64,000 bases of DNA, taken from NCBI RefSeq assembly GCF_900129655.1, contig NZ_FQWK01000003.1, positions 124,001-188,000 on the forward strand, in the 5' to 3' direction. The first letter of the stretch is position 1. The number at the start of each line of letters is the position of its first letter. The notes below the pieces were generated by a model. The model had not been told where the DNA came from. It searched no databases and saw only the letters and a list, made by a program, of their open reading frames with translations. The DNA comes from Bacteroides clarus YIT 12056 (GTDB taxonomy: Bacteria > Bacteroidota > Bacteroidia > Bacteroidales > Bacteroidaceae). Shown here piece by piece: positions 5,962-64,000 of this stretch. The position numbers and the translations under genes were made by a program.

Positions 5962-6068
5962 TGAGTTATGAGTTATAAGTTATAAGTTATGAGTCATGAG
6001 TGGTAAATGCCTGTGCTTATAAAAAGAAAGCACCCGCGAATTATAACTTATAACTCATAACTTATAAT
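5962..6068. repeat. Inverted pair of TTATGAGTTATAAG-type repeats
   Basis: The left arm has repeated GAGTTATGAGTTATAAG units. The right arm TTATAACTTATAACTCATAA is nearly its reverse complement, so the whole can fold into a long A/T-rich stem between ribE and the nitroreductase gene. The same family is found at 29336-29402 and, as a single arm, at 53470-53505. Confidence 0.8.
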
Positions 6069-44517: not shown

Positions 44518-44655
44518 ATTGAGAATTGAGAATTAAAAATTGAGAAATAAGAAAGACCATGTATCTACCTGCGGGCATATACATGGTTTTTTTTTATCGG
44601 AAGAACCGACTATTCTCCCTATTTCTCAATTTTTAATTCTCAATTCTCAATTTCC
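44515..44655. repeat. Inverted pair of AATTGAGAATTGAG-type repeats
   Basis: The left arm follows the DUF3127 stop directly. The right arm (44622-44655) enters the end of the next gene, whose last codons (EIEEIEN and stop) are made of the repeat unit. An intrinsic terminator sits between the arms. Confidence 0.82.
44556..44595 (+). terminator. Terminator after DUF3127 gene
   Basis: ACCATGTAT / ATACATGGT stem with a loop of about 14 nt, followed by nine T. Confidence 0.85.
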
Positions 44656-57247: not shown

Positions 57248-58198
57248 ATGAAAGATTTAACATCCTTTACGCTTTCGGTCGTACAAGAACTGGAAGACAG
57301 GGAGCGGTTCGGAACCGCTCATGTGTATCGCAGCGCTTTGCGCGCTTTCCAACGTTACTGGAAAACCAGGCATCCGCAAGAAGAGATACGGATGAAAAAA
57401 GTGTTCGTGGCCGCCACGATACAAGAGTTTGAAAGGCATTTACAGGAGCGGATGCTCAAACTGAACACCTTATCCACGTACCTGCGGATGCTGCGTGCCC
57501 TTTACAACCGGGCATTGGCGGCGGGAATGGCCAACTATGTGCCCGGACTGTTTGCCCGCGTATATACCGGAACCCGCACCGACGTGAAGCGCGCCCTGCC
57601 GCCTGCCGATATGGGGCGTGCGCTTGCCATTTCCCCGTCCTTGCAGCAGGAGCTGAGGGAAACGCAAATATGGTTCGCCCTGCTTTTCCTGTTACGGGGA
57701 ATGCCTTTTGCCGACCTTGCCCGGCTACGCAAATGCGACTTCAGGAACGGAGTGATTTCCTACCGCCGGCAGAAAACCGGACGACAGGTGAGCGTGCAGG
57801 TCACCGCCGAAGCCGCCGAACTTCTCCGGCAATGCGCCGACCACCGTACAAACTCCCCCTATCTGCTCAATATCCTATGGGACGAAAGCCGGTATTCTCC
57901 ATTGGGAAGCCGTAACGAATATCAACATTACCAACGGGTATTAAGAAACTTCAACCGGAAACTGAAGCTGCTGGCATCCGCCCTCGGACTAAGCGGAAAA
58001 TTATCGTCCTACACCGCGCGCCATACATGGGCGACAACGGCTTTTCACACGAAAGTCGCTGTGGGAATCATCAGCAACGCGCTGGGACATTCATCGGTAA
58101 AGGTGACGGAAACCTATCTGAAACCATTTGAAAACGAAGTGCTGGATAAAACCAATAAGAAAATAATCGCTTACGTAAAAAGATGCACGACGTGCTAA
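57248..58198 (+). CDS. Tyrosine recombinase (Tsr-type DNA invertase)
   Basis: A 316-residue tyrosine recombinase. The N-terminal SAM-like core-binding domain covers about 5-100 (VYRSALRAFQRYWKTRH). Catalytic residues are Arg in LLFLLRGMPFADLARLR, the Lys in YRRQKTGRQ, His-x-x-Arg replaced by YTARHTWATTAF (Arg and His), a second His in LGHSSVKVT and the nucleophile Tyr in TETYLKPF. Similar Bacteroides enzymes (for example Tsr15 and Tsr19 of B. fragilis) flip promoters of surface-protein genes beside them. Here a perfect 19-bp inverted-repeat pair begins 57 bp after its stop, so it is the likely switch enzyme for the fimbrial operon. Confidence 0.92.
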   Translation: MKDLTSFTLSVVQELEDRERFGTAHVYRSALRAFQRYWKTRHPQEEIRMKKVFVAATIQEFERHLQERMLKLNTLSTYLRMLRALYNRALAAGMANYVPGLFARVYTGTRTDVKRALPPADMGRALAISPSLQQELRETQIWFALLFLLRGMPFADLARLRKCDFRNGVISYRRQKTGRQVSVQVTAEAAELLRQCADHRTNSPYLLNILWDESRYSPLGSRNEYQHYQRVLRNFNRKLKLLASALGLSGKLSSYTARHTWATTAFHTKVAVGIISNALGHSSVKVTETYLKPFENEVLDKTNKKIIAYVKRCTTC

Positions 58199-58254
58199 TG
58201 CCAGGAGATTTGGATTTCCGATATATATCTATAATACAGGATATTACAAAGGAA

Positions 58255-58543
58255 TTACTTTGTAGGTAACGGAGAGTATCTTCACTGCAAAAGTAACCAT
58301 AAAACTTGAAAAACAAAGCAAAAAAGATAAAATCTTATCACAAACGGCACAAAAGCCCTACTTGCGAACAAACAGAAACAAACCAACCCCGAAGCATACG
58401 GCAACAAATCCTCTTACCGCCTTTCCGGACGGAAAGCGGGAAACACCTGTTATATAACCCCACTGATTATACAACCCGGCCATACATGCGACAGACGCTT
58501 CTGTGAGGAGCCGCAAAACCGTTTTCCGTTACCTACAAAGTAA
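58255..58543. repeat. Invertible DNA segment bounded by 19-bp inverted repeats
   Basis: The left repeat TTACTTTGTAGGTAACGGA (58255-58273) and the right repeat TCCGTTACCTACAAAGTAA (58525-58543) are exact reverse complements. Within each lies the dyad (G)TTAC-TTTGTAG-GTAAC, a typical tyrosine-recombinase crossover site. The 251 bp between them contains a full promoter (58288-58317) and no convincing gene. The whole lies between the recombinase and the fimbrial operon. Confidence 0.9.
58288..58317 (-). promoter_or_regulatory. Promoter inside the invertible segment, facing away from the fimbrial genes
   Basis: Minus-strand -33 TTTG (58314-58317), 18-bp spacer and -7 TACTTTTG (58288-58295). In the present orientation it reads left, towards the end of the recombinase gene. 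After inversion the elements would lie at 58481-58484 and 58503-58510, reading right into the fimbrial operon about 70 bp before the first gene. No rightward promoter was seen in the segment now. Confidence 0.82.
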
Positions 58544-58580
58544 CGGACAAATATCAACAATCAAACAAACAAAACAGTAC

Positions 58581-58868
58581 ATGGTAACACCCCGAACACA
58601 GGCCGCCATCGTGCAGCTTAACCACATCCACGCAGGCAGCTATGATAGCTGTCCGGAACAGCATATACCTGCCGAAGAAGCGAGGCGCTCCCTACTGCCG
58701 CAACTCACCGCCGCCGGACTTATCATTCCAAAAGGTGACAATAATCCGATGGAAATGCAATCTTATAAAAAATCCTACATTCAATACGGAACGACTGCGC
58801 AGAACCCCGGAGTAGTACACCCGGTGAACGGGACATACCCGCAAGCAACAAACATGTCGGACTTATAG
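58581..58868 (+). CDS. Small protein at the head of the fimbrial operon, winged-helix-like
   Basis: A 95-residue frame starting MVTPRTQAAIVQLNHIHAGS. The first 55 residues (AEEARRSLLPQLTAAGLIIP) resemble the winged helix of Rrf2-type regulators, but the match is weak. The tail is Gln/Asn/Pro-rich. It would be the first gene read from the inverted promoter. A stop TAG at 58866 is followed in the same frame, 15 bases later, by the DUF3575 start. I do not recognise the family; a regulator of the operon is a guess. Confidence 0.55.
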   Translation: MVTPRTQAAIVQLNHIHAGSYDSCPEQHIPAEEARRSLLPQLTAAGLIIPKGDNNPMEMQSYKKSYIQYGTTAQNPGVVHPVNGTYPQATNMSDL

Positions 58869-58883
58869 CCGGAGAGAAAACAG

Positions 58884-59471
58884 TTGAGAAAAAGAAGCTA
58901 CATATCGGCCTCGGTGCTCCTGGCAGTGCTGTTATTGCTTCCCGCCTGCAAGACGGAAGGGCAAAACATTGCCGTGAAAAGCGATTTGCTTACAGGCATG
59001 CTCTCCTCTCCCAACCTCGGCGTGGAAGTAAGGCTGTCCGAACGGTTTACGCTGGAAACCGGATTTCATTACAACCCTTTCCCGGCAGGAGAGAACAAAC
59101 GCTGGAAGCACTGGTTTGTACAGCCGGAACTGCGTTATTGGATGTGCCAGCCCTATGGCGGGCATTTCTTCGGGGTGAACCTGACGTACGGAGTGTACAA
59201 TGCGGGAAAAATGAAACTGCCTTTGGGGCTCTTCAAGGGAGTGCGCTCCGACAGATACGAAGGAAACGTCATGGGCGCGGGCTTCTCGTACGGCTACCAC
59301 TTTATCCTCTCTCCGCACTGGGGACTGGAAACAAGCCTCGGCATAGGATTTCTGCACACCGCATACGAACGTTACCGCTGCCTGCACTGCGGAGAAAAGA
59401 CGGGAAGCGGGCGCAAGAGCTTCATAGCTCCCACAAAAGCGGCCGTATCGCTGGTGTATATGATAAAATAG
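58884..59471 (+). CDS. DUF3575 lipoprotein, fimbrial-locus outer-membrane protein
   Basis: A 195-residue DUF3575 protein. The signal SASVLLAVLLLLPACK has a lipobox (LPAC). The mature part (IAVKSDLLTGMLSSPNLGVE, LSERFTLETGFHYNPF) has alternating strands typical of small outer-membrane barrels. DUF3575 genes usually precede DUF3868 and Mfa/Fim genes in Bacteroides fimbrial loci. Translation appears to start at TTG (58884), with GGAGAGAAAA as a good ribosome site; no in-frame ATG lies near. Confidence 0.85.
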   Translation: MRKRSYISASVLLAVLLLLPACKTEGQNIAVKSDLLTGMLSSPNLGVEVRLSERFTLETGFHYNPFPAGENKRWKHWFVQPELRYWMCQPYGGHFFGVNLTYGVYNAGKMKLPLGLFKGVRSDRYEGNVMGAGFSYGYHFILSPHWGLETSLGIGFLHTAYERYRCLHCGEKTGSGRKSFIAPTKAAVSLVYMIK

Positions 59472-59503: not shown

Positions 59504-61012
59504 ATGAAAAACTTAATCCGTATTCCTCTGGCTCTGGCAACGCTGACGCTCTGTTGCAACACCGGCTGCGCACAGGAATTCTACCGGGGGGAAATGTTCG
59601 TTACCGGACAACGGTTCTCGCTTGCGGACGGACATCTGAACATAGAATTGTCCGTTGACTTCGAGGGGCTGAAAATGCCCTCGGACGAATCGCTGACTCT
59701 GACACCCGTACTCATCAGCGGGGAAAACGAACAAGACCTGCCCGCAGTCCTGATTAACGGCACGGAGAAGCAGAAAGTATACCGACGGGAACAGAAATTT
59801 GCCGACAGCAAGCATCCCGCCCCCATACCTGCGGTAGTAATAAGAAATGACGCCAAGGTGTCGCGTTCGTTCCACTACCGGGTGGCAGTGCCCTATCAGG
59901 AGTGGATGAAGAACGCCTTGCTCCTGATACGGTCGCAGGAGTGCGCCTGCCACGGGAAGCAAGGAAACGTCTATGAAGACAAGATAGCCGACAAACTGAG
60001 CCTGCCCAAAGCACGCGCTTCCGCCTGGGACACGGGTACGGACAGAAAATACCTGTCTTGGGTGAATTTCATCGAACCCGCACCGGACAAGGATACGCTC
60101 CGCACGATAACAGGCTCCATCCCCTACTTCGGCCGGGACAGCCGGGAGAAAGGCGAGAAGCCGTTGGGCGGCCTGTCCGAAGAGAAGCAGGACTTCGAGA
60201 TATACCATCGCCTGCGCAATGCCTTGCAGGACATCCGACGGGAAAGCGGAACGGAGCTTTCCAAAGTGGAAATAACCGGTTATGGGGCTCCCATAGGAAA
60301 TCTGAAAAAGAACGAGATGAACGCGCCGGTACGTGCGCTAAGCCTGAAAGGGTATCTGCGCGAAAACCGCCTGGCGGCAAGCACTCCGCTGGAAGTCCGT
60401 TGGATTTCCGAGGATTGGGATTCCATCGCCGCACTGATAAAGCAAAGCGACATGATGTTCCGTGAAGCCGCCCTCGACCTGATAAACAATGTAGACATAG
60501 ACAAGGGGCGCGAACGCATGCTGATGAACCTTGCCGACGGTAAGCCTTACAAATATCTGGCGGAAAGGATATTCCCCGAAGTAATGAGAGTGGACTACAA
60601 AATAGAGTACACCCGCAGGCCGCCGGATGCGGCGGAAAGCCTGAGGCTGTTCCGTACGGGCGAACGGAAAGCGCTGCACCTGAACGAGTTCTTTACAGTG
60701 GCAAGCAGCTATCCGCAAGGGTCCAGGGAGTACAACGATGTGCTCGACCTGGCAGCCCGCCTGTTTCCCGACAGCCCCGAAGCGAACATCAACGCCGCGG
60801 CGGTAGCCCTCGCCAAAGGCGAAACAGCCAAGGCCCGCCGCTATCTGGAAAGGTTCGCCACCCTGCCCATGGCATACAACAACATGGGCATACTCTGCCT
60901 GCAGGAAGGAAACCGCGACAAGGCGGAAGTGTATCTTACCATGGCGGCGGCAGCCGGAATAGAGCAAGCGAACGAAGCATTGAAAACCCTGAGAAGAGAA
61001 ACCGAATATTAA
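59504..61012 (+). CDS. DUF3868/OmpA-like protein of the fimbrial locus
   Basis: 502 residues. A signal peptide (1-23, ending NTGCAQ, possibly a lipobox) is followed by the DUF3868 domain (about 25-190), which is beta-rich, then an OmpA-like segment (SKVEITGYGAPIGNLKKNEM with ALSLKGYLREN) that in OmpA proteins binds peptidoglycan, and TPR units at the end (ARRYLERFATLPMAYNNMGI). It probably anchors or assembles the fimbria at the outer membrane. It begins 32 bp after DUF3575 and ends 18 bp before the major fimbrillin. Confidence 0.85.
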   Translation: MKNLIRIPLALATLTLCCNTGCAQEFYRGEMFVTGQRFSLADGHLNIELSVDFEGLKMPSDESLTLTPVLISGENEQDLPAVLINGTEKQKVYRREQKFADSKHPAPIPAVVIRNDAKVSRSFHYRVAVPYQEWMKNALLLIRSQECACHGKQGNVYEDKIADKLSLPKARASAWDTGTDRKYLSWVNFIEPAPDKDTLRTITGSIPYFGRDSREKGEKPLGGLSEEKQDFEIYHRLRNALQDIRRESGTELSKVEITGYGAPIGNLKKNEMNAPVRALSLKGYLRENRLAASTPLEVRWISEDWDSIAALIKQSDMMFREAALDLINNVDIDKGRERMLMNLADGKPYKYLAERIFPEVMRVDYKIEYTRRPPDAAESLRLFRTGERKALHLNEFFTVASSYPQGSREYNDVLDLAARLFPDSPEANINAAAVALAKGETAKARRYLERFATLPMAYNNMGILCLQEGNRDKAEVYLTMAAAAGIEQANEALKTLRRETEY

Positions 61013-61030: not shown

Positions 61031-62146
61031 ATGAAAACGAACAATTACTTATGGACGGCCCTGGCAGCCACCACTTTTGCGCTCGCCGGATGCGGCGGTG
61101 ACGACAACGGAATGACAGAACCCCGGCCGCAGGAGAACATAGCGCAACTGGAACTGCATCTGACTGGAAACGGAACAAACACCAAAGCGACAGGCGGCGC
61201 ATTGCCCGCGCAGGCCGAGGAAAACACCGTGAAACGTTTCACCGTCGCCATCTTCAACAGTGACGGATCGGTGAACGCCATCCAAACCGTGACCCAAAAC
61301 ACAACCGCCGCCACAACCATCAACTGTACGCCGGCCAAAGACTGCACGGGCATGGTGGTAGCCAATGCTCCCACGAACGACTATTTTGCGGGTGTGCTGA
61401 ACAAGACCGACTTTCTGAAGAAAACCATCGCCCTATCCGACGCCCAAACCAAAGACTGCCTGCCCATGAGCGGGGATGTGAAGAACAGCAGCAAAAGCGC
61501 GACTTTCACGCTCGGCGCAGGTGAAAACAAAGGTATGACGGCAGCGTTGAGCCGTCTTGTGGCAAGGGTATCGGTGAGCAGCATCAAAACCGCTTTCGAC
61601 CCCAACGGGCAATACTCCGCAGCGTCTTATGAGCTGAAGAATGTCTTTGTACGGAACGCCGTGAAAGAAGCGGTACCCGCCACAGGAGATTACAGCCAAA
61701 CGAAAATGGGAACGCCCGCCTATCTGACCGGCAACCACAACGGCTCCACCGGAACGGCGGCCTATCTGGCAACAGCGGTAACCCCGGCCGTCAACGTAAA
61801 AACGGAACATAAAACCGACTATTGGTTCTATATCTTCCCCAACGAAGAAACTACCCGTACGGCATTGGTGCTGGAAGGTACTTTCAAGAAAAACGCGAGT
61901 GACACGGGAACTACCATTTACTACCCCGTCGTCATCAACAAAAAACAGACGGGAACAACTATTACCGGGACTTCGGGTACAGGGACTTCCACCATCGCCC
62001 GCAACACCACCTATGCCGTAAAAGCCACGATTAAGAGCATAGGAACCGAAGACCCCGACGGAGAGATAACCCCTACTTCACTGGAGCTGACGGTGAGCGT
62101 CGCCGACTGGGCGTTGAACATTACCCAAGACGTAACATTTGAATAA
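61031..62146 (+). CDS. Mfa1/FimA-like major fimbrial subunit
   Basis: 371 residues. The lipoprotein signal has the lipobox ALAGC. The N-terminal domain holds LELHLTGNG and VKRFTVAIFNSDGSVNAIQT, and the C-terminal part ends in LELTVSVADWALNITQDVTF, the strand region used in subunit polymerisation. As in Porphyromonas Mfa1, lipidated precursors are exported and cut by an Arg gingipain-like protease before assembly by strand exchange. The Thr/Ala/Gly-rich composition is usual for such subunits. It follows DUF3868 by 18 bp; the anchor subunit follows by 23 bp. Confidence 0.88.
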   Translation: MKTNNYLWTALAATTFALAGCGGDDNGMTEPRPQENIAQLELHLTGNGTNTKATGGALPAQAEENTVKRFTVAIFNSDGSVNAIQTVTQNTTAATTINCTPAKDCTGMVVANAPTNDYFAGVLNKTDFLKKTIALSDAQTKDCLPMSGDVKNSSKSATFTLGAGENKGMTAALSRLVARVSVSSIKTAFDPNGQYSAASYELKNVFVRNAVKEAVPATGDYSQTKMGTPAYLTGNHNGSTGTAAYLATAVTPAVNVKTEHKTDYWFYIFPNEETTRTALVLEGTFKKNASDTGTTIYYPVVINKKQTGTTITGTSGTGTSTIARNTTYAVKATIKSIGTEDPDGEITPTSLELTVSVADWALNITQDVTFE

Positions 62147-62169: not shown

Positions 62170-63057
62170 ATGAAGCATCTTCACCCATCCATACTTACGG
62201 CACTGTATGCCGGACTTATCTTCCTGTACGCATCATGCGTGCGGGAAGATACAAGCGCCTGCATGCAGTATGAAGTAAACGTACGGGTAGTGGATGCCGA
62301 AGGCAACGACCTCACCGAAAGCGAGGTGCTGGAAAAGTCGGAAGTGTATCTGTTCGGCGAGAACGGATTTGTGCGCATGATTCCTGCGGGAGTATCGTCG
62401 GATTACCTCTTCGGGCACTACAAGGATGACAGGCTCACGCTGGTGGCATGGGGAAACGTCAAGGAAGATACGCTGATAACCGCCGAAATCAAACCGGGCA
62501 CTCCGATTGAGGAAGCGCGGCTGAAGCTGAAACAGTATGCCGAGGGAAATCATCTGCCCGTTACCGACCTCTTTTACTGCCGTAAGGAGTTGAGCAACAC
62601 CGCAACAAGAGGCATACGGGAAGAAAACATCACGCTGGTCATGGAAAGACTGGCGGCAGGGCTGAGCATACGCGCGCGCTATCTGACCGAACGGTATGCC
62701 GACAAAGGCGAAGGCTATACCTTTATCGTGAAGGGAACGGGCAGCGAAATGAACTTCATGGGAAAAGTGACCGGAGAGGATTCGGGCTACAAGCCACTGA
62801 CCCTCACGGACGGACAAGGGGATGCCTACGCCCCGCCCTTCCGCATCTTTCCTACGGAAAAGGGAGAATGTATAGAAGTGGAGATATACAGGGGACAGGA
62901 GAAGCTATGCACCGTTACACACGACGAGCAACAGCAGCCCTTATGCGCGGCAGCCGGAAAGCAGACGGATATTGAAATAGATTTCAGATACGCCGAAGTG
63001 AGGACGTTTGTGACAGTGCTGCCCTGGGGAGAAGTGGAACAGGAGACGGAAATGTAA
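62170..63057 (+). CDS. FimB/Mfa2 family fimbrial anchor subunit
   Basis: 295 residues with a lipoprotein signal (lipobox YASC). Family features are YEVNVRVVDAEGNDLTESEV, LVAWGNVKEDT, NITLVMERLAAGLSIRARYL and the C-terminal QTDIEIDFRYAEVRTFVTVLPWG. Mfa2/FimB proteins stop subunit polymerisation and anchor the fimbria to the outer membrane through their lipid. It lies directly after the major subunit, the same order as in P. gingivalis mfa1-mfa2, and 12 bp before the next fimbrillin. Confidence 0.9.
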   Translation: MKHLHPSILTALYAGLIFLYASCVREDTSACMQYEVNVRVVDAEGNDLTESEVLEKSEVYLFGENGFVRMIPAGVSSDYLFGHYKDDRLTLVAWGNVKEDTLITAEIKPGTPIEEARLKLKQYAEGNHLPVTDLFYCRKELSNTATRGIREENITLVMERLAAGLSIRARYLTERYADKGEGYTFIVKGTGSEMNFMGKVTGEDSGYKPLTLTDGQGDAYAPPFRIFPTEKGECIEVEIYRGQEKLCTVTHDEQQQPLCAAAGKQTDIEIDFRYAEVRTFVTVLPWGEVEQETEM

Positions 63058-63069
63058 AGAGACAAAAGT

Positions 63070-64000
63070 ATGACAGGTATATTGGAACATAGAAGCAAAG
63101 CCGCTACATTATATATCGTAACCGCCGTGGCTGTCATCATTGCCTTATCGGCTTGCGACACCGGACAGCCCGACATGCCGGCCGATGATGATGAAGTGAT
63201 GCTCACGCTCCGCCTTTCACTGCCGGAAACGGAACGGGATGCCGCCACCCGTGCCATTACGTCCGTTGAAGAGAATGCGATAGACATCGCCCAACTGAAA
63301 GTGCTGGTATTCAAAGCCGCCGGTACAACGGAAACTTTCAGTTACGAAGCGCCGCAAGTGCTGCTGCAAGGCGGAAAGTATACGGTAACCTTGAAGCAGA
63401 GCCGCGCCGGAGAGAAGTATCGGCTCGTCGTCATAGCCAATGCGGGAAAGAAACTGCCCGTCATACCGGAGAACACCTCTAAAAACGATGCGCTGAAAAT
63501 GATTACATTCGGTGCCGGCGGAAAATGGAACGCAACGGGCACGACGAACTACACGCGTTTCCCCATGTGGGGAGAGACGGCGGCGGCACAGGTAATCTCC
63601 TCTGCCACATCTCTGGGAACAATCACGCTGCTCCGTGCGCTGGCTCGTATAGATGTGGGTTGTGCACTCAGCGGAGAAACGGCAGCGGGAGTAAACGGGT
63701 TCACCCTGACAAGCGCCAGTATATACCGCACCAAGAACAAGGGGTATGTAGCCCCCGTGAACGGGGGAACCATCACCGGTAATGTGGTCGCAAACGTATC
63801 CATCCCCCCGGATGCCGGAACAAACGGCGCGCTGACTTATACCTGTACGGACGGTAAATCTTTGATACGGACTATCTATGTAGCGGAAACGCCGCAAGGG
63901 AGCAACAAGGATAATAATGTATGTCTTGTCGTGGGCGGAACTTATGCGGGAAGCACGAACTATTACAGGGTAGACCTTACCGCCGGGGGAAATTATATAC
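63070..64000 (+). CDS. Fimbrillin family (tip-like) lipoprotein, 3' end outside window
   Basis: The ATG at 63070 opens a frame that runs to the right edge. The signal VAVIIALSACDTG carries a lipobox (LSAC). The following region (LRLSLPETERDAATRAITSV, IAQLKVLVFKAAGT, YRLVVIANAGKKLP) matches the N-terminal domain of fimbrillin-type proteins, and MWGETAAAQVISS the usual second strand. An accessory or tip subunit is most likely from its position after the anchor gene. The C-terminal domain is not available. Confidence 0.85.
   Translation, partial: MTGILEHRSKAATLYIVTAVAVIIALSACDTGQPDMPADDDEVMLTLRLSLPETERDAATRAITSVEENAIDIAQLKVLVFKAAGTTETFSYEAPQVLLQGGKYTVTLKQSRAGEKYRLVVIANAGKKLPVIPENTSKNDALKMITFGAGGKWNATGTTNYTRFPMWGETAAAQVISSATSLGTITLLRALARIDVGCALSGETAAGVNGFTLTSASIYRTKNKGYVAPVNGGTITGNVVANVSIPPDAGTNGALTYTCTDGKSLIRTIYVAETPQGSNKDNNVCLVVGGTYAGSTNYYRVDLTAGGNYI

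Follow-up and report, generated by a model that had tools for sequence, protein, structure and literature searches.

The fimbrial operon of Bacteroides clarus YIT 12056 that starts at position 58581 of the window raises the question of whether its expression is set by an invertible promoter and, if so, in which state it was sequenced. The window is the whole stretch of DNA that was analysed (64,000 nucleotides; contig NZ_FQWK01000003.1, positions 124,001 to 188,000, forward strand). An earlier note, made from the letters alone, had proposed a promoter segment bounded by inverted repeats and captured in the OFF orientation next to a tyrosine recombinase gene. The features of the locus are as follows.

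57248..58198, + strand: tyrosine recombinase of 316 residues, putative invertase (Pfam Phage_int_SAM_5 and Phage_integrase, both above cut-off)
58251..58273, + strand: left site, with outer arm GGAATTAC, centre TTTGTAG (58259-58265) and inner arm GTAACGGA
58255..58543, no strand: predicted invertible segment of 289 bp (inverted repeats; homologous segments of the family are inverted between collinear flanks)
58288..58295, - strand: -7 box TACTTTTG, aimed away from the operon (OFF); identical in three other copies of the locus
58314..58317, - strand: -33 box TTTG, with an 18-nt spacer; retained in three other copies of the locus
58325..58340, no strand: AGATAAAATCTTATCA, which includes GATAA-N4-TTATC as an inverted repeat and lies upstream of the promoter; identical in four aligned copies, two of them near-duplicates
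58449..58458, no strand: GTTATATAAC, a perfect palindrome located at the segment's far end; identical in four aligned copies
58525..58547, - strand: right site, with TCCGTTAC, centre CTACAAA (58533-58539) and GTAACGGA
58581..58868, + strand: first gene of the operon, 95 residues (homologues have 124; 29 inner residues are missing here)
58884..59471, + strand: DUF3575 protein (Pfam E 1e-64)
59504..61012, + strand: DUF3868 protein (Pfam E 5.8e-11; TPR matches below cut-off)
61031..62146, + strand: FimA-type pilin (Pfam P_gingi_FimA, E 6.2e-18, and FimA4_C)
62170..63057, + strand: Mfa2/FimB anchor pilin (Pfam Mfa2, E 6.9e-41)
63070..64000, + strand: borderline FimA-like minor pilin (P_gingi_FimA), continuing past the window to a total of 368 residues

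Promoter segment and fimbrial operon

The inverted repeats are perfect, as claimed: the two 19-nt arms (58255-58273 and 58525-58543) are 100% complementary, lie 251 nt apart and span 289 bp. The only other perfect inverted repeat of at least 19 nt with arms 100 to 1,500 nt apart in the window was AT-rich and located near 44520/44630; there were also AT-rich repeats whose arms lie closer together, for example near 5970/6045. In the 3.75-Mb genome, the exact 19-mer was found at these two places only, and matches with three mismatches occurred at four further places, versus one for a reversed control pattern.

Promoters were called by matching to the Bacteroides -33/-7 consensus. The leftward promoter described in the earlier note was recovered with 10 of 10 consensus letters (TTTG at 58314-58317, an 18-nt spacer and TACTTTTG at 58288-58295) and was the only full match in the segment for spacers of 18 to 21 nt, its own spacer lying at the short extreme of this range, which was both scanned and seen in relatives. 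At least one full match arose in 2.6% of 5,000 dinucleotide shuffles of the segment. Between 58199 and 58581, there were five weaker leftward matches (9/10) and, in agreement with the note, no rightward site with 8/10 or more consensus letters. Flipping the segment in a script placed the start of the -33 box at 58481 and the -7 box at 58503-58510, reproducing the predicted positions. A conserved TTATACAACCCGG (58467-58479) was found in the segment beside the short palindromes at 58325-58340 and 58449-58458. The AGATAAAATCTTATCA element is possibly a regulator site, and the palindromes and TTATACAACCCGG may be regulator or accessory sites. The motif TTATAYAACCC occurs twice in the window and is absent from both copies of the locus in another genome, G176.

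The genes from 58581 on were assigned by Pfam to a FimA/Mfa2-type operon, as the note had it. In the FimA/Mfa (type V) pili of Bacteroidota, a FimA-type stalk and an Mfa2/FimB anchor are encoded in one operon, and the window operon has this combination of genes. The FimA-like protein at its end matched P_gingi_FimA at the cut-off for the part inside the window and slightly under it for the whole protein. The 29 inner residues absent from the 95-residue product of the first gene are present in five relatives. Three of five scanned homologues, the window protein not being among them, displayed a weak likeness to Rrf2 (E 0.006-0.07, below cut-off), and the structure model of the 95-residue protein (pLDDT 44) was too poor for use. 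Past the window (L031:8203-9696), there is a gene encoding an Mfa_like_1 protein with a sub-cut-off Lcl_C match, a possible tip adhesin; the next gene encodes a C5 cytosine methylase.

Recombination sites and recombinase

Xer/Cre-like core sites usually have a 7-bp centre framed by inverted arms of 8 bp. Judged by their letters, the 19-bp repeats of the window are each part of such a larger core site, with GTTAC arms and a 7-bp centre. The right site has two inverted 8-bp arms flanking the centre, and the left site retains the centre and the inner arm, its outer arm being degenerate (ATTAC). The locus thus carries paired facing sites of the GTTAC-N7-GTAAC type with identical centres and, since the centre is asymmetric, facing sites yield inversion. 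The window repeat with one extra base, GTTACTTTGTAGGTAACGGA, is printed in part of a report on B. xylanisolvens for a 280-bp segment with an integrase upstream, and inversion of a 289-290 bp segment was detected there by long reads at a pair of GTTACTTCTTAGGTAACGGA, a 20-bp repeat with two bases unlike those of the window (PMC12118408). The site consensus appears in published excerpts as CCGTTACCTABVRAGTAAC.

The repeat sequence and the type of switch are already published, for Bacteroides capsules, S-layer and fimbrial-like loci. As described in excerpts of the published work, the invertible promoters of capsule and S-layer loci (B. xylanisolvens CPS; B. thetaiotaomicron CPS1/3/5/6 and BT1927) have an adjacent tyrosine invertase and the same class of site as the window. 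The centre of the capsule class is TTCTTAG, in contrast to TTTGTAG in the window, where the genes downstream form a FimA/Mfa2 fimbrial operon. At the B. fragilis Tsr loci, according to the relevant part of a review, tyrosine recombinases invert surface-protein promoters and one open reading frame matches a sequenced fimbrial protein; the outer-surface-protein (fimbrial-like) loci of Weinacht et al. 2004 resemble the window locus by this description (PMC12632263). Among the hCom2 invertons, fimbrillin genes are reported to be enriched downstream of some groups, and the fimbrillin and FimB/Mfa2 invertons are likened to the window locus by description, with fimbrial genes downstream in both; neither this locus nor its site sequence is named in those excerpts (PMC11892184). 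The present analysis adds a site and a family that are shared, counts of orientation and cases of natural inversion, and it ties the published capsule and S-layer inversion site to fimbrial operons.

The E. coli fim switch works alike but belongs to another family, since it has unrelated fimbriae, 9-bp repeats and two recombinases. Its recombinase genes adjoin the switch. The element is described, in the part of the source that deals with it, as a 314-bp invertible promoter with short inverted repeats and dedicated site-specific recombinases (PMC8777976).

The recombinase gene of the window, said in the earlier note to end close to the segment, does so at 58198, 56 bp short of the left repeat. 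The model of its product (pLDDT 92.9) has the Xer/lambda Int/Cre fold, with TM-scores of about 0.4-0.65; a scan of the protein against NCBIfam gave no model above cut-off. In an alignment of 95 rows, which includes the window protein twice, K176, R258, H259, H281 and Y290 were present in all rows, and R174, R233 and Y255 were likewise invariant (95/95). The canonical place of the first catalytic arginine, Arg I (position 153; P153 in the window protein), was occupied by P, S or C in all 95 rows, and position 150 by R (59 rows), C (28), Q (5) or H (3). Alignment to an Xer protein set P153 beneath the Xer arginine and Y255 beneath the Xer histidine. By these aligned residues, the proteins are a family of invertases that lacks the canonical first catalytic arginine and has a tyrosine in place of the first histidine. 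Apart from Arg I, which is lacking in all aligned relatives too, the active site of the window protein is intact. In IntDOT-like recombinases, Arg I is displaced and another conserved arginine is available; in the window protein, R174 and R233 are conserved candidates for such a role, and R174 is presumably the counterpart of the IntDOT arginine. R174-x-K176 is invariant across the family. For the CTnDOT integrase, the catalytic arginine is reported in excerpts of the source to be displaced and replaced by a downstream arginine (PMC8138268).

The earlier note read the locus as an invertible promoter in the OFF orientation that has a tyrosine recombinase of its own and precedes a fimbrial operon. 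This reading is the best one and is supported: the locus is very probably a phase-variation switch in which a recombinase flips the promoter, read in the OFF orientation. The recombinase (57248-58198) would bind the two core sites at the ends of 58255-58543, and strands would be exchanged inside the identical, asymmetric centres. The sites face each other, and the segment would consequently invert. In the sequenced orientation, the sole full-consensus promoter would fire to the left, leaving the operon from 58581 OFF. After inversion, the promoter (-33 box at 58481, -7 box at 58503-58510) would fire to the right over the right-hand site and drive the operon, with an ON-state leader estimated at about 64 nt. 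We infer that the sites are acted on by the adjacent recombinase and that fimbrial expression follows from the orientation. The short spacer and the lack of the canonical Arg I count against the reading, although the latter is common to all aligned relatives.

A family of switches and its orientations

The 19-mer, with up to two mismatches, was found in 75 of 158 Bacteroides genomes, including 59 of the 93 good ones. Among the matches listed, it was present on both strands in at least 64 genomes, versus 1 for the reversed control pattern, which matched on any strand in 27. Because the control matches singly by chance, the both-strand count is the better figure, and with at least 64 of 158 genomes it points to one cassette of recombinase, site and promoter common to many Bacteroides species.

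The site-pair analysis covered 136 loci, 14 of which had no pair (chance matches in other phyla, contig ends and a few Bacteroidales records). Removal of identical segments left 107 distinct pairs from 104 loci, mostly of Bacteroides and partly a chosen portion of the both-strand pairs among the matches listed. Sites were paired if they had at most 4 mismatches to the core and agreed with each other at no fewer than 15 of 19 positions. The two sites of a pair had the same 7-bp centre in 104 of the 107 pairs, versus 31 pairs expected from an independence estimate that leaves out the pairing rule, a rule that inflates centre identity somewhat; there were 15 different left-site centres. The inner 8 bp were identical within 71 pairs and the outer 8 bp within 20. 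Of the three pairs whose centres differed, one was a second pairing in L094 that overlapped another. A homologous recombinase flanked the site in 101 of the 107 pairs (from an overlap of 15 bp to a gap of 128 bp), a count limited to genes whose 3' end faced the site, other arrangements of a second recombinase being invisible to it; the recombinase was within the segment in 2 pairs, and 4 pairs were at a contig or locus edge. At L039:7375-8749 and L187:3109-4545, the recombinase gene is inside a 1.4-kb segment with the promoter at one end.

In 88% of 106 segments, a promoter with 9/10 or more consensus letters ended 30 to 36 bp from the outer edge of one site, and in none was this so at both sites; at five control positions, the proportion was 0-1% for four and 14% for one. 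Terminator-like sites were counted in 9 and 16 of 101 segments on the two strands, versus 4 and 4 in shuffles. Recognised fimbrial genes followed 35 of the pairs, a subset defined by phmmer matches within 2.5 kb that misses some members, such as L076, where the downstream gene is a DUF3575 gene by Pfam. Downstream of other pairs were large surface-type genes or NusG-domain genes, the latter UpxY-like by position, and at these loci the layout and the promoter position were the same as in the window.

A chance repeat was ruled out, since the site pair and the recombinase recur across the genus, as was control by a serine invertase of the Mpi type, since site and neighbour are both of the tyrosine type. 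A search of genome contigs for recombinase plus pattern returned 109 pattern matches and no confirmed relative. A mobile-element reading was also considered, the 18-mer being present in 21 viral-contig stretches. Six of these had a site pair, five with a full and one with a partial recombinase match, and five of the six had DnaB, HU or amidase homologues similar to ones in the neighbourhood of the window locus. In the remaining 15 there was a single site, probably due to chance, and no recombinase match.

The co-occurrence of site and recombinase bears on the proposal that the adjacent recombinase is a bystander and that inversion is chiefly the work of a global invertase encoded elsewhere. 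B. fragilis has global tyrosine invertases, Tsr19 and Tsr0667, according to part of PMC4747536, and two recombinases 39-40% identical to that of the window are encoded elsewhere in the B. clarus genome. However, both of these adjoin inverted repeats of their own, with different arms or centres, the exact 19-mer is nowhere else in the genome, and recombinase and site were found together in 103 of the 107 pairs, making a distant invertase very improbable. One of the two other recombinase genes is located about 1.6 kb ahead of another DUF3575 gene.

The state of a locus can be read from an assembly by a simple rule based on the site centre, the side of the promoter and the recombinase end. Comparison of L226 (genome G069) with L235 (G065) provided a clean case of natural inversion: the flanks aligned in the plus orientation (92.6% and 96.0% identity over 1,000 bp each) and the segment, 97.2% identical over 290 bp, in the minus orientation. 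A weaker case was provided by L204 (G030) and L237 (G067), with flank matches of 196 bp (91.8% identity) and 260 bp (93.1%) and a segment that aligned over 300 bp in the minus orientation at 96.0% identity. The latter comparison is mosaic, since the L204 recombinase gene resembles its counterpart in L093 more closely (91.6% over 936 bp), and contamination amounts to 7% in one of the two genomes. In L204 (2036-2335), the site centres differ (TTCGTAG and TTCATAG), yet the segment is reversed relative to L237. Opposite orientations at orthologous loci indicate that this class of switch inverts in nature.

With the recombinase side as the reference, clear calls for the family were 87 OFF and 8 ON, two of the latter (L091 and L117) being doubtful, and there were 6 additional weak OFF calls. 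Among 56 clusters at 80% identity, 40 were OFF only, 6 ON only, 2 mixed and 8 without a clear call; in a subset taken regardless of orientation, the clear calls were 31 OFF and 4 ON. The fimbrial subset comprised 34 OFF calls out of 35 (30 of them clear), its lone ON call being the doubtful L117. An assembly reflects the majority state of the grown or sampled material, so that the OFF excess cannot be read as a rate. The inverted-repeat promoter switch of BT1927 is reported, in an excerpt of PMC12548429, to be expressed in about 1 in 1,000 cells in rich medium.

Four copies of the window locus were found, in the window, in genome G018 and, as two near-identical copies, in G176; all four were OFF, with no ON copy among them. 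The two G176 copies of the switch and operon (L183 and L184) are about 99.4-99.5% identical and lie about 354 kb apart on one strand, and in one of them an insertion of about 1.8 kb interrupts the DUF3575 gene. The uniform state of the four copies and the single orientation of 34 of the 35 recognised fimbrial members would fit a fossil or fixed switch, in which the module is present, inversion has ceased in the fimbrial class and the only role of the leftward promoter is to give a leftward transcript. This is improbable, because the repeats are perfect, the recombinase frame is intact, the promoter is conserved and the operon has no rightward promoter with 8/10 or more consensus letters. In addition, the segments of the window and of its G018 orthologue are 80% identical, and the centre is TTTGTAG twice in the former and TTTGCAG twice in the latter, a joint change at both sites that is expected if the sites still recombine. 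The phase-variation reading of the locus as OFF draws on the module family, the fixed one-sided promoter, the matched centres and the natural inversion of other members, and we infer inversion of the window locus itself from them.

Possible feedback of the OFF promoter on the recombinase gene

The fimE gene of E. coli is under orientational control, with a logic similar to that of a feedback model that extends the antisense damping suggested in the earlier note. The OFF promoter would transcribe into the recombinase gene from behind, lower its output and stabilize the OFF state, and the ON orientation would free the recombinase and lead to flipping back. Among the papers searched on the damping idea, none joined antisense, invertible promoter, Bacteroides and recombinase. 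We consider this feedback tentatively, as a possible but rather unlikely cause of the OFF excess (87 to 8 clear calls; 40 to 6 among single-state clusters at 80% identity). Consistent with it, wherever a recombinase gene flanks the pair (101 pairs), its 3' end points towards the site, in line with excerpts of PMC11892184 that describe a class of nearby tyrosine invertases oriented such that the inverton promoter cannot drive them. At the window locus there is no intrinsic terminator between the promoter and the end of the recombinase gene. Terminator-like sites were detected neither in the window segment, on either strand, nor between the segment and the recombinase gene end, the first leftward ones being located within the recombinase gene (57405-57419 and 57371-57394). 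In B. fragilis, plasmid-borne BF2766 (Tsr19) is described in part of PMC4747536 as abolishing the OFF excess of IVp-I, which is predicted by a cis effect on the chromosomal gene.

Several observations do not favour the feedback. Both L039 and L187 are OFF too, although the recombinase is inside the segment and the promoter does not face it (their state was judged by which adjacent gene inversion would place under the promoter). The cost of expression in culture or a preference of the recombinase explains the OFF excess equally well, and the B. thetaiotaomicron group 126 inverton has approximately equal orientations in culture, according to excerpts of PMC11892184. Leftward terminator-like sites were found near the recombinase end in 13 of 101 relatives.

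Slightly less probable again is the fuller proposal that the module is a self-stabilizing OFF latch, in which one promoter has two jobs (the operon when ON, antisense to the recombinase gene when OFF) and the recombinase has a rearranged active site. If so, OFF would be long-lived and ON self-erasing across several surface systems of the genus, namely fimbriae, capsules and S-layer-like proteins. Given so strong an OFF excess, the upkeep of the bias is directly testable.

In the B. clarus genome, recombinase/inverted-repeat cassettes at L261 (C9, about 103 kb) and L262 (C17, about 588 kb) apparently have three copies of the site each, and the third copy could permit nested inversions.
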